In this document: in pieces, positions 29,362 to 41,125 of the stretch
Layout of the letters: each line of letters starts with the position of its first letter
Numbering within the stretch: position 1 is the first letter of the stretch
IMG/VR virus record: IMGVR_UViG_3300042477_000051
Coordinates: 1-42,435 of that record
DNA: 42,435 bases
Origin: a virus
Reading direction: 5' to 3' (one strand)
Notes under the pieces: generated by a model
Told to the model about the DNA's origin: nothing
Databases searched by the model: none
The model's input: the letters and a program-made list of their open reading frames with translations, nothing else
Made by a program: the position numbers and the translations under genes

Positions 29362-30294
29362 TCACGGCACATGCCGTTGATGCATACGCGCCAGACGTAA
29401 CCGTGCCGCTTGATTGTTGGTTCCAAGAGGGGTATCCGTCAGAGGGTTGCTCATCAGCATGCGGATGCGGTTAATGCCGCGTTTGTAGATGTCGCTTAGG
29501 GTTATCTTAGAGATGCCATACTCTCGTTCAAGTTGCGCCCATGTGACGGCTGGATAACATGATCGCGCTTCAATGATCGCCTTGGTCCTGTCATCGAGGT
29601 ACTGATCAACGTAACGCAGCATGATTTGCACATCTTGACTGATGTCAGTATCAACTGCATTTGGGTCTGCAATGGTGTCAATAATGCTATGGCCTTCTGA
29701 GTTGTTGATCTGCTGGTCGATGCTGGTAACGGTGTAGGTTTGCCGGAGCAGATTAGACAACTCGCCAGGGTCCATGTCGATTTCTTGTGCCACTCTGGTG
29801 ATGCTCGGTTGGTAACCAAGCTGATGGCTAAGATCCTGGATTGTGCGGTTGATCTTGTACATCGTCTCGTGCACACCAATTGGTAGCCGGATGATGGCAT
29901 CGCTGCTGATCAATGCACGCGTGATGCCTTGGCGGATCCACCAATAGGCATAGGTCGAGAACTTGTAGCCGCGGCTTGGATCGAACAGCTCAACAGCACG
30001 AGCTAGGCCGATGTTGCCCTCCTGGATCAGGTCGAGCAGCTCCATGGTCTTGTTGTTGCGCTTGTCATACCTGCGAGCGACATGCACGACGAGTTGCAAG
30101 TTGCACTGAATGAACCGCTGGCGGGCGCGTTCACCGCTGCGCTTCTCACGCTGTTCGGCGTTGGTCAGCGAGCGATCCAGTGATTGCAACTCACGCAGCC
30201 GTTGCACGCGTCTGCCGAGTTGTATCTCTTGTTGCGGTGTCAACAGTGGATACTTGGCGATACTGTTGAGATAGTCCTTGATGCTGTCAGACAT
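29362..30294 (-). CDS. Phage-encoded sigma70-family RNA polymerase sigma factor
   Basis: A 310-residue sigma factor. Region 1.2 (SIKDYLNSIAKYPLLTPQQE) spans residues 4-23, region 2 (DLIQEGNIGLARAVELFDPS and YKFSTYAYWWIRQGITRAL) spans about 60-130, and region 3 (RLPIGVHETMYKIN) follows. Region 2.4 is well kept, so -10 recognition should be normal. Region 4.2 (TWAQLEREYGISKITLSDIY, residues 251-270) has a helix-turn-helix shape but lacks the usual RERIRQIE recognition helix. A 30-residue basic tail follows. It would redirect host RNA polymerase, probably to phage late promoters. Confidence 0.93.
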   Translation of the reverse strand: MSDSIKDYLNSIAKYPLLTPQQEIQLGRRVQRLRELQSLDRSLTNAEQREKRSGERARQRFIQCNLQLVVHVARRYDKRNNKTMELLDLIQEGNIGLARAVELFDPSRGYKFSTYAYWWIRQGITRALISSDAIIRLPIGVHETMYKINRTIQDLSHQLGYQPSITRVAQEIDMDPGELSNLLRQTYTVTSIDQQINNSEGHSIIDTIADPNAVDTDISQDVQIMLRYVDQYLDDRTKAIIEARSCYPAVTWAQLEREYGISKITLSDIYKRGINRIRMLMSNPLTDTPLGTNNQAARLRLARMHQRHVP

Positions 30295-37953: not shown

Positions 37954-38118
37954 ATGGAGCTAGCACACCCACTTTCGGTCCAGTTCACGGCCGAGCAGCT
38001 TGCTTGGCTTGATTCCCGTCGCGTTGCTGGGTTGTCCCGTAGCGCAGTGCTAAGACTGGTGGTCGAAGAGGCCATGCGCCTGCATCGCAATGGCATCCTG
38101 CCAGCCACTAGCCGATGA
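37954..38118 (+). CDS. Small ribbon-helix-helix DNA-binding protein
   Basis: A 54-residue protein starting at ATG 37954. HPLSVQFTAEQLAWLDSRRV gives the strand and first helix, and GLSRSAVLRLVVEEAMRLH the second helix of a ribbon-helix-helix fold. It is the first gene of the plus-strand replication operon, next to an inverted repeat, and is coupled by ATGA to the primase-helicase. Autoregulation or control of the divergent operons is likely. A plasmid-partition-like or replication initiator role is an alternative. Confidence 0.75.
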   Translation: MELAHPLSVQFTAEQLAWLDSRRVAGLSRSAVLRLVVEEAMRLHRNGILPATSR

Positions 38119-40607
38119 GCATCCTCGACGCAGCACGCGGCAGGTGGCCAGACCTGCTGCAGCAGCTTGCTGGCTTGACCGCCGATCAGCTCACTGACAA
38201 GCATCAGCCGTGCCCGCTTTGTGGTGGCAAGGATCGTTACCGCTTTGACGACCAAGACGGCTCAGGCTCTTGGTTTTGCAACAAGTGCGGCGGCAAGGCC
38301 GGCACTGGCGGCGCAGGCAGCGGTATGGACATGCTGATGCGTCGCACGGGCTTGAGCTTTGCCGAAGCAGCGCAGCGGGTTGAGCAGCATCTCGGCCTAG
38401 CCAAGCCAGTACCAGCACCGCCTCTGAAAGGCTGGGATGCCCACTGGCGGTACACAGACACCTTTTATGTACTGCGGCGCAATTTGCCTGATGACGGCAA
38501 AGAAATTCGCCCCCTCTGGTTTGATGGCGAGGCATGGCGTCGCAAGGCACCGCCATCACCCCGTCCTTTGTACTGGGCGCGTCGTGATGCCAACCTGCCG
38601 CTGCTGATTGTTGAAGGCGAGAAGGCTGCCGATGCAGCCGCCGCGTTGTTTCCCGGCCATGCCGTACTGACCTGGGCGTCAGGCTGCCAGGCGATTGACA
38701 AAGCCGACTGGTCCCCTATCACTGGCCGCCGCTGCGTGTTATGGCCTGATGCGGACATGCCAGGCCGTGAGGCAATGGCCAAGCTAGCGCCACGGTTGCT
38801 TGCTGCTGGTGCCGCGCAGGTTCGCATCGTGCATCCGCCTCAAGGCGTACCAGAAGGCTGGGACCTCGCTGATGCGGACTGGTCGCCGGCTCAAGCTGCA
38901 GCGCATCTCATGTCCAACCGCTCAGCACCTGTTGAACTGCCGGATCCCGTGGATGCACCGTTGCTGAGTAAGCCGGTTCCAGAACCCGATCCCATACCGC
39001 AGGCTGATAGCTGCTTTACCTGCCTCGGCTTTGACAATGACAGCTTCTACTACCAGCCGCACAGCACCGGACAGGTAACCCGCCTCTCACGCAGCAGTCA
39101 CACCGGAACCAATCTCGTGTCACTGGCGCCTCTTGGTTACTGGGAAACCCTGTACCCATCCAAGACTGGCGTCAACTGGACCGCAGCAGCAAGCAGCTTG
39201 TTTGAACGCCAGGCCGCTGTTGGTGTCTACAGTCCAGACCGGATCCGTGGCCGTGGCGCTTGGTGGGATAAGCGCGTCAGCGTGCTGCATCTTGGTGATC
39301 GTCTGGTGGTTGACGGCGACCCGCGTGATGTCAGCGCTGGTTTGGCCGGCAGCGGGTACCTTTATCAGCGCCTTGCACGCCTGCGTGGTCCAGCAGATGC
39401 CAAGCCCCTAGCCGATGATGAAGCCTTTGTCCTGGCCGAGCTAGCCGAGCGTTTTCACTGGGAGGTCCCTGCATCCGGCCTACTGCTAGCTGGCTGGGCA
39501 GCGCTTGCTCCGATCTGCGGTGCGCTTGACTGGCGTCCTCATGCCTGGCTAACCGCAGGCGCAGGTTCCGGCAAGTCCGCCATCCTTGACCGCTACATCT
39601 CGCCGCTGCTAGGCGACATGGGTTTGGTTGTAGCTGGCAACACCACAGAGCCAGGCATCCGGCAAGCCCTACGAGCCGATGCCCTGCCGGTGGTCTTTGA
39701 CGAGGCCGAATCCAATGAGCGCACGGACCAGCAGCGGATGCAGGCCATCCTCGGCCTGGCAAGAGTGGCATCGAGCGAGTCCAAAGCCCACACCCTTAAG
39801 GGAAGCCCCGAAGGCGATACACAGCGTTACACCATCAGGTCGATGTTTCTAATGAGCAGCATTGCAACCGCGCTCAAACAAGGTGCTGATAAGTCACGCT
39901 TTGCTCAGCTCACATTGCGGAATCCGAATGAGCTACCAAAAGCTGAACGTATTGCCCACTGGGAAGCCTTAGACCGTGACCTTGACAAGCATGTCTCTGA
40001 AGCAATTGGGCAGAGATTGCAGGCTCGCACTATCGCTCTGATACCCGTAATCCGTGCTAGCGTGCGCATCTTTACCCGTGCAGCTGCTGAGGCATTTGAT
40101 AGCCAACGGCTTGGTGATCAATACGGCACGCTATTAGCAGGCGCGTGGTCTTTGCAGTCCAGTGAGGTCGTTACCCGAGAGCAAGCATGGCAATTGATTG
40201 AACAGAACAACTGGGAACCCTATTCTCAGTCCATTGAAATACCAGATGAAAAGCGCTGCTTACAGCGCATCTTGCAGCATCAAATACGGGTCGAGGGAGA
40301 TAAAACAGTAACCCGAACCATTGGCGAACTTGTAGATCTTGCGTTGCATCATGGCAATGACATGGTTGTAACAACCGAGCTGGCAGTGGCCACACTCGGG
40401 CGTAATGGCATCAAGGCTGAGCAGGGCGCTATCTGCGTGTCCAACACGGCCAACGCCATTGCAGGCATCCTTTCGGACACGCCTTGGAGCAACTGCTGGT
40501 CAACCGTGCTGGCGCGTTTGCCAGGCGCCGAGAAGGTGGGCGTTATTTGGTTCAAAGGTTCAGGCGGTAACAGTCGAGCCACCAAAATCCCCCTTGAAGC
40601 CGCCTGA
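38115..40607 (+). CDS. Primase-helicase (zinc ribbon, Toprim, DUF927-like ATPase)
   Basis: An 830-residue replication enzyme. Residues 33-58 form the primase zinc ribbon (CPLCGGKDRY ... CNKCGG). Residues 160-225 are a Toprim domain with VEGEK (E168) and PDADMPG (D212, D214). Residues 300-560 are a DUF927-like helicase with Walker A GAGSGKS (482-488) and Walker B VVFDEAE (526-532), followed by RSMFLMSSIATALKQGADKS. It should make primers and unwind DNA as one polypeptide. No phage DNA polymerase is seen, so host polymerase III is probably recruited through the phage clamp. Confidence 0.93.
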   Translation: MSILDAARGRWPDLLQQLAGLTADQLTDKHQPCPLCGGKDRYRFDDQDGSGSWFCNKCGGKAGTGGAGSGMDMLMRRTGLSFAEAAQRVEQHLGLAKPVPAPPLKGWDAHWRYTDTFYVLRRNLPDDGKEIRPLWFDGEAWRRKAPPSPRPLYWARRDANLPLLIVEGEKAADAAAALFPGHAVLTWASGCQAIDKADWSPITGRRCVLWPDADMPGREAMAKLAPRLLAAGAAQVRIVHPPQGVPEGWDLADADWSPAQAAAHLMSNRSAPVELPDPVDAPLLSKPVPEPDPIPQADSCFTCLGFDNDSFYYQPHSTGQVTRLSRSSHTGTNLVSLAPLGYWETLYPSKTGVNWTAAASSLFERQAAVGVYSPDRIRGRGAWWDKRVSVLHLGDRLVVDGDPRDVSAGLAGSGYLYQRLARLRGPADAKPLADDEAFVLAELAERFHWEVPASGLLLAGWAALAPICGALDWRPHAWLTAGAGSGKSAILDRYISPLLGDMGLVVAGNTTEPGIRQALRADALPVVFDEAESNERTDQQRMQAILGLARVASSESKAHTLKGSPEGDTQRYTIRSMFLMSSIATALKQGADKSRFAQLTLRNPNELPKAERIAHWEALDRDLDKHVSEAIGQRLQARTIALIPVIRASVRIFTRAAAEAFDSQRLGDQYGTLLAGAWSLQSSEVVTREQAWQLIEQNNWEPYSQSIEIPDEKRCLQRILQHQIRVEGDKTVTRTIGELVDLALHHGNDMVVTTELAVATLGRNGIKAEQGAICVSNTANAIAGILSDTPWSNCWSTVLARLPGAEKVGVIWFKGSGGNSRATKIPLEAA

Positions 40608-40651
40608 CTGTTCGGAGGCGTTCGGCCGAGAACCATTGGCATGACTGGAAA

Positions 40652-40677
40652 CTAACGGTCCTAACGGTCCTAACGCT
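40652..40677 (+). repeat. Tandem 9-bp iteron-like repeats, left array
   Basis: CTAACGGTC occurs at 40652-40660 and 40661-40669, followed immediately by CTAACGCT at 40670-40677. The three are head to tail with no spacer. They start 45 bases after the primase-helicase stop. Confidence 0.9.
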
Positions 40678-40689
40678 TTTTCAGAAGAG

Positions 40690-40756
40690 CCCCCCTTTAA
40701 GAGAGAGGATGTAAGTGTGTGGGTGGGTGGGGTGTCGCTCTTTATGTATGTATATG
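40690..40756. other. Skewed central part of the putative origin
   Basis: Between the left and middle repeat arrays lie a CCCCCC run (40690-40695), a purine stretch, three G runs (GGGTGGGTGGGG at 40721-40732) and an A/T-rich segment TTTATGTATGTATATGTTTT (40741-40760). The strand asymmetry and the A/T-rich block resemble an unwinding region. Only three strong G runs are present, so a full intramolecular quadruplex is not assured. No coding frame of note is seen. Confidence 0.5.
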
Positions 40757-40762
40757 TTTTTT

Positions 40763-40784
40763 AGCGTTAGGAGTGTTAGGTTAG
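40763..40784 (-). repeat. Iteron-like repeats in inverted orientation, middle array
   Basis: AGCGTTAG at 40763-40770 is the exact reverse complement of the third left repeat. GTGTTAG follows with a nine-base period (40773-40779), and GTTAG at 40780-40784. The middle array therefore mirrors the left one across the central region. Confidence 0.8.
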
Positions 40785-40826
40785 GGGCTCAGCCCAGTGG
40801 TGGCGGGCGATCTGCGCCGAACGCCC

Positions 40827-40855
40827 ACCGTTAGGCTACCGTTAGGACCGTTATG
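40827..40855 (-). repeat. Iteron-like repeats in inverted orientation, right array at the gene start
   Basis: ACCGTTAGG at 40827-40835 and 40838-40846, then ACCGTTATG at 40847-40855. The last copy includes the ATG of the ribbon-helix-helix gene, so a bound protein would cover the translation and perhaps transcription start. These are reverse complements of the left CTAACGGTC units. Confidence 0.88.
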
Positions 40856-41125
40856 AAAGAAGTCAAAGTCCGGTTTGAGCCTGCGGACCTCGCAGTGCTG
40901 GACCAGCAGGCCGCAGCGGCAGGCATCACCCGCTCTGAGCTGGTGCGCTCACGGGCACTTGTTTCAAATTGTCAACACGGCCTTACCGTTGCTGGTTACC
41001 ACCGTCTAGTGTCCGATGCGCTAGCCAATGTGCGCGGGGACATCCCACGACGCATAGTTGAGCAGCTTGTCGCTTATGTCATTACATGGATCTCATCAAC
41101 ATCTCAGCCAAACAGCAACCCGTGA
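40853..41125 (+). CDS. Ribbon-helix-helix DNA-binding protein next to the repeat array
   Basis: A 90-residue protein. KEVKVRFEPADLAVLDQQAA and AGITRSELVRSRALVS form a ribbon-helix-helix (strand, helix, turn, helix) in the first 45 residues; the remainder is helical and may oligomerise. The start codon lies within the last of a set of ACCGTTAG repeats. It is probably the protein that binds these repeats, either as autoregulator or as part of an origin complex. The end overlaps the next gene by 40 bases. Confidence 0.75.
   Translation: MKEVKVRFEPADLAVLDQQAAAAGITRSELVRSRALVSNCQHGLTVAGYHRLVSDALANVRGDIPRRIVEQLVAYVITWISSTSQPNSNP

Follow-up and report, generated by a model that had tools for sequence, protein, structure and literature searches.

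The alpha protein of phage P4 is a Zn-ribbon primase-helicase with a C-terminal DNA-binding domain and short iterons. Its origin-binding domain is reportedly a winged helix, in work (Yeo 2002) to which PMC4234260 refers. A related arrangement has been described for phage-inducible islands, since PICI origins comprise two iteron sets that flank an AT-rich region and are located immediately 3' of the initiator gene, with the iterons of several islands each displayed separately (PMC6092414). For SaPI Rep helicases, a passage of PMC7581432 citing Ubeda 2007 states that the C-terminal domain recognises iterons directly downstream of rep. The locus analyzed here presents a similar organization in a 42,435-bp IMG/VR virus record, the whole of which is referred to as the window. 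We consider it highly probable that its repeat array is a phage replication origin bound by the C-terminal domain of the upstream primase-helicase, with residue 812 in the wing of that domain reading the repeat word.

The repeat array and its conservation

The array lies directly 3' of the gene for an 830-aa primase-helicase (38115-40607), in the 245-bp gap that separates it from a ribbon-helix-helix (RHH) gene (40853-41125). The features of the locus are as follows.

38115..40607, + strand: 830-aa primase-helicase, presumed replication initiator, stopping 44 bp ahead of the first iteron
40155..40604, + strand: C-terminal domain (aa 681-830), winged-helix-like origin-binding domain as predicted from an AlphaFold2 model
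40530..40592, + strand: terminal beta-hairpin (wing), aa 806-826, model strands 126-133 and 138-146
40548..40550, + strand: codon 812 (TGG, W), whose residue covaries with bases 1 and 2 of the repeat word
40652..40678, + strand: left iteron set, CTAACGGTC, CTAACGGTC, CTAACGCTT
about 40690..40762, no strand: core, candidate unwinding site, a C-run and a GA/G-rich stretch followed by AT-rich TTTATGTATGTATATGTTTTTTAG
40765..40785, - strand: middle iteron set, inverted, CGTTAGG, TGTTAGG, GGTTAGG
40786..40828, no strand: spacer between the middle and right sets, with a partly palindromic element and the degenerate forward word CCGAACG
40829..40855, - strand: right iteron set, inverted, CGTTAGG, CGTTAGG, CGTTATG
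40853..41125, + strand: 90-aa RHH protein (NikA-like, PF21983, 1.8e-6), neighbour of the putative origin and not the word reader

The mirrored arrangement proposed in the initial annotation is present, with the left set in forward orientation and the middle and right sets inverted, and so is the G-rich and A/T-rich core at about 40690-40762, with an A+T content of 70% at 40740-40779 of the window sequence. The accompanying description of three, three and three 9-mers is correct for the core word if one-base variants are allowed, and fails for exact 9-mers. Exact copies of CTAACGGTC occur at 40652-40660 and 40661-40669, the third left copy being CTAACGCTT (40670-40678); the middle set contains a sole exact CGTTAGG (40765-40771), after which TGTTAGG and GGTTAGG follow; and the right set has CGTTAGG at 40829-40835 and 40840-40846 and CGTTATG at 40849-40855, the latter overlapping the RHH start codon at 40853. 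The left set is flanked by a spacer resembling that at 40786-40828. In total, nine CTAACG hexamers lie in the gap, six of them exact and three differing by one base. The hexamer and its complement CGTTAG are found 16 times in the 42.4-kb contig, 6/16 of them inside the 245-bp gap, where 0.06 copies are expected (Poisson P about 5e-11), and in 200 Markov genomes the maximum was 3 copies per window of equal size. Single-strand folding of the gap was stronger than that of shuffled sequences (z -3.5) because of the inverted arrays, and was hence not counted as evidence for a cruciform.

A search for the same arrays in related phages, as the initial annotation had advised, recovered the skeleton of iterons, AT/G-rich core, inverted iterons, spacer and inverted iterons in >200 IMG/VR loci and in the cultured Synechococcus phage S-H1, whose primase is annotated as hypothetical. 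In the relatives, a core of about 80-100 bp separates a forward set from a first inverted set, and a spacer of about 50 bp then leads to another inverted set, in front of which one forward copy is often found. A TATGTAT-type core is shared by many of them. The gap and the layout are thus kept, with positions and orientations nearly constant, and the repeat word itself varies; phages with a homologue of the window's primase carry, among others, CCTAACG, CCTCACG, TGTTACG, TGTAACG, TCTTACG, TCTCACG and TCTGACG. In other phages the equivalent position is occupied by two unrelated primase-helicase types, a Prim-Pol/PriCT-2/VapE-like initiator with the words AGGTGGG or AGGTAGG and a D5_N/DUF5906 initiator with the word GGCGGACGCAA, so that three unrelated initiator types, each with its own word, adjoin near-identical RHH and clamp genes. 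Related genes are present in Synechococcus, Cyanobium and Vulcanococcus genomes, which points to picocyanobacteria as hosts. Synechococcus sp. HJ21-Hayes (L454, L455, L468) and Cyanobium sp. Cruz-8D1 (L461, L463) each harbor several primase-helicase copies with TGTRACG-type arrays on separate contigs, which suggests multiple prophages or other integrated elements. Elsewhere in the window, the minus strand at 29362-30294 encodes a phage sigma factor for RNA polymerase (PHROG 351).

Residue 812 of the primase-helicase and the repeat word

The primase-helicase was identified through matches to Pfam Zn_Ribbon_Prim (PF08273; 4.7e-16, 59.2 bits versus a cut-off of 23) and to the PHROG DNA primase (9e-137). 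Its C-terminal 150 residues were modeled with AlphaFold2 from 33 sequences at a mean pLDDT of 88, and the last elements of the model are helix, helix, strand, turn and strand, with residue 812 near the tip of the first strand of the hairpin. The domain is predicted to be winged-helix-like, a label based on the order of elements in the model and on family context. Foldseek comparison with solved structures yielded no significant match, including to the P4 and SaPI origin-binding domains, and an HMMER sequence search of the PDB yielded no homologue; SaPIBov1 Rep (8tch), considered as a structural relative, was rejected as too weak at E 2.6. A viral fold search returned two significant matches, a Synechococcus phage S-CAM8 protein and H9C0J7, to which the search output attached no known function.

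Comparison of the family column by column confined the word signal to the last 30 residues of the primase. With the hybrid contig L230 excluded from the calculation, column 812 reached a symmetric uncertainty with the word of 1.0, and the next best of the 823 columns reached 0.62. The word takes the form XX-T-N-ACG, and its XX is CC in phages with W at 812, TG in those with R and TC in those with either Y or H. Residue 812 was scored in 144 phages and, setting aside one phage in which the script had parsed the wing wrongly, the remaining 143 paired with base 2 of the word without exception (R-G 78/78, W-C 43/43, Y-C 18/18, H-C 4/4), in a test that covers G versus C, since the word pattern permitted only these at base 2. 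Extended to both bases of XX, the pairing of W with CC and of Y/H with TC holds save for a few unresolved consensus calls. Many of the scored phages are closely related, and the independent evidence is therefore the number of switches. On a tree that omits the last 70 residues of the primase, about 7 switches of the residue (between R and not R) coincide with 7 of the base, and all five independent pairs on well-supported (starred) branches are in agreement (5 to 0).

Position 810 is a possible second code position, as K810 pairs with TGTNCCG (8/8) and non-K with NACG (136/136). The eight phages L390-L395, L398 and L399 combine wing K810 with the core TGTNCCG, not TGTNACG. A single wing residue setting the fourth base (N) of the word was sought and not found. 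L278 and L279 carry R812 and the word TGTCTAC/TGTAGAC, which is outside the TNACG pattern. A comparable relationship is seen in the Prim-Pol/VapE type, where K at the predicted wing tip occurs with AGGTGGG (220:53 sites) and A, T or I there with AGGTAGG (13:83), in counts pooled over related phages, so that a Fisher P overstates independence. The model of this initiator, poor over its first half and moderate (about 74-89) over its last 70 residues, likewise ends in a helix and a hairpin with the K in the turn.

The covariation of the repeat word with a single primase-helicase residue suggests a simple recognition code. The pairing could instead arise through linked cassette exchange, with residue 812 as a hitchhiking marker and another part of the protein reading the word. 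The wing codons end about 60 bp ahead of the first iteron, and whole initiator-plus-array modules have been swapped beside conserved RHH-clamp genes. Since the wing adjoins the array, linkage contributes to the residue-word pairing in some lineages; L155 and L156, in which Y812 is nested among R812 relatives and the words are a mixture of TCTTACG and TCTGACG, resemble a recent tract exchange that took wing and origin together. The pairing recurs, however, across separate lineages, and the other wing columns, which are linked equally, fail to track the word. L264 has W with CC despite a wing that otherwise resembles the Y group. L411 (R, TGTTACG; wing GPTRFPGIAGVSRSVAI) and L412 (H, TCTTACG; wing GPTHFRGIAGVSRSVAV) share wing and skeleton but differ at 812 and in their words; their downstream regions are 85% identical, and 10/43 mismatches fall on one word base, on either strand, as the G-to-C change of TGTTACG to TCTTACG, making whole-cassette exchange hard to invoke, although the two wings differ at a few further residues and the pair thus does not isolate residue 812. 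We regard cassette exchange as improbable and retain residue 812 as the preferred word reader. One contig counts against the code: L117, which is the same as L230 (IMGVR_UViG_3300016265_001324), carries Y812 and a hybrid array about 60-255 bp past the primase stop, with TCTCACG on the left and TGTAACG on the right, and may reflect either recombination within the core or a chimeric assembly.

Function of the array

In the reading that we favor, the primase-helicase would bind the iterons via its C-terminal domain, the wing tip reading the first bases of each XX-T-N-ACG word. Because the window matches the PICI origin layout, the opposed iteron sets would probably load helicase on either side of the G-rich/AT-rich core, where the DNA would melt and replication would start. 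We infer origin activity, one of the two functions put forward in the initial annotation, from the position of the array 3' of the primase-helicase gene, the occurrence of the layout in hundreds of relatives and the covariation of the word with the C-terminal wing. The GC-skew analysis recommended as a check lent no support, with no turning point at the array: the contig shows weak skew, whose turning points lie at about 4-6 kb and 27 kb. This is compatible with a partition, packaging or regulatory site that the same primase-helicase domain would bind and at which replication would not start, but the location 3' of the initiator and the iterons flanking an AT-rich core match origins demonstrated experimentally in PICI (PMC6092414), and initiation is the simplest role for the array because its presumed binder is a helicase. 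A function other than initiation is accordingly considered quite unlikely.

The initial annotation had also named the RHH protein encoded at 40853 as the binding protein, or the array as its autoregulated operator. This protein resembles the NikA mobilisation family, and its gene is found after the putative origin in three unrelated initiator contexts. A letter-identical RHH protein is encoded beside AGGTGGG arrays (L192, L205) and GGCGGACGCAA arrays (L189, L028), and proteins about 98-99% identical to it adjoin CCTAACG arrays, while the N-terminal strand MKEVKVRF/MKEIKVRF is common to different word classes. Identical RHH proteins beside unrelated words and primases indicate that the word follows the upstream gene, and the RHH protein was ruled out as word reader. 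No operator word conserved together with the RHH protein was found, nor was a sigma-70-like promoter for such an operator. The overlap of the last repeat with the RHH start codon, the placement of the RHH gene after the array in most relatives and the general tendency of RHH proteins to bind short direct repeats notwithstanding, these results, together with arrays 3' of primases that have no detectable downstream RHH match, render an RHH binding site, be it operator or RHH-bound origin, very improbable.

On balance, we lean towards a one-residue code (W, R or Y/H at 812) in which a concerted change of ~10 iterons would give rise to a new, mutually incompatible replication group, and towards unrelated primase-helicases having evolved the same wing-tip solution. 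The pattern suggests that incompatible replication between co-infecting phages or satellites has been selected for. To our knowledge, natural sequence rarely reveals protein-DNA recognition codes, and the about 140 phages analyzed here constitute a ready-made series, minimal pairs included, in which two bases of the putative origin word can be predicted from a single residue in the wing. A literature search for cyanophage origins found none, and an origin and its initiator are here proposed for a large group of cyanobacterial phages without a previously annotated origin.

Comparison with known replicons

As in PICI and SaPI, the iteron region of the window is located immediately 3' of a primase/helicase gene, and its left and middle sets flank an AT-rich core; binding of the iterons by the C-terminal domain is suggested in the window by covariation. 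In contrast to these satellites, the window represents a full tailed phage encoding terminase, portal, major head protein, tape measure, tail fibre and endolysin, and it differs further in having a third iteron set, with an RHH and a clamp gene downstream, and in a residue-to-word pairing that is visible over many phages. An origin layout that PMC6092414 called confined to phage-inducible islands would thereby be extended to full cyanophages. The likeness to P4 alpha consists of the zinc ribbon, the predicted C-terminal DNA-binding domain and the short iterons, whereas the P4 domain was matched neither by sequence nor by fold and the single putative origin region of the window lies directly downstream of the gene. 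The archaeal plasmid pRN1 likewise has an essential origin region just downstream of its primase-helicase gene and encodes a small DNA-binding copy-control protein, but it requires a 100-bp stem-loop instead of iteron arrays (PMC4234260). The RepA-iteron origin of PLE satellites is similar in that initiator-iteron specificity differs among related elements (PMC7145576, PMC8263062) and different in its RepA_N initiator, which lacks a helicase fusion, and in its semi-palindromic iterons of about 30 bp. Iteron variation in PLE has been shown to protect the satellite from the origin-directed nuclease Odn (PMC8263062), and we hypothesize by analogy that escape from such a nuclease may be one reason for word change in these phages.
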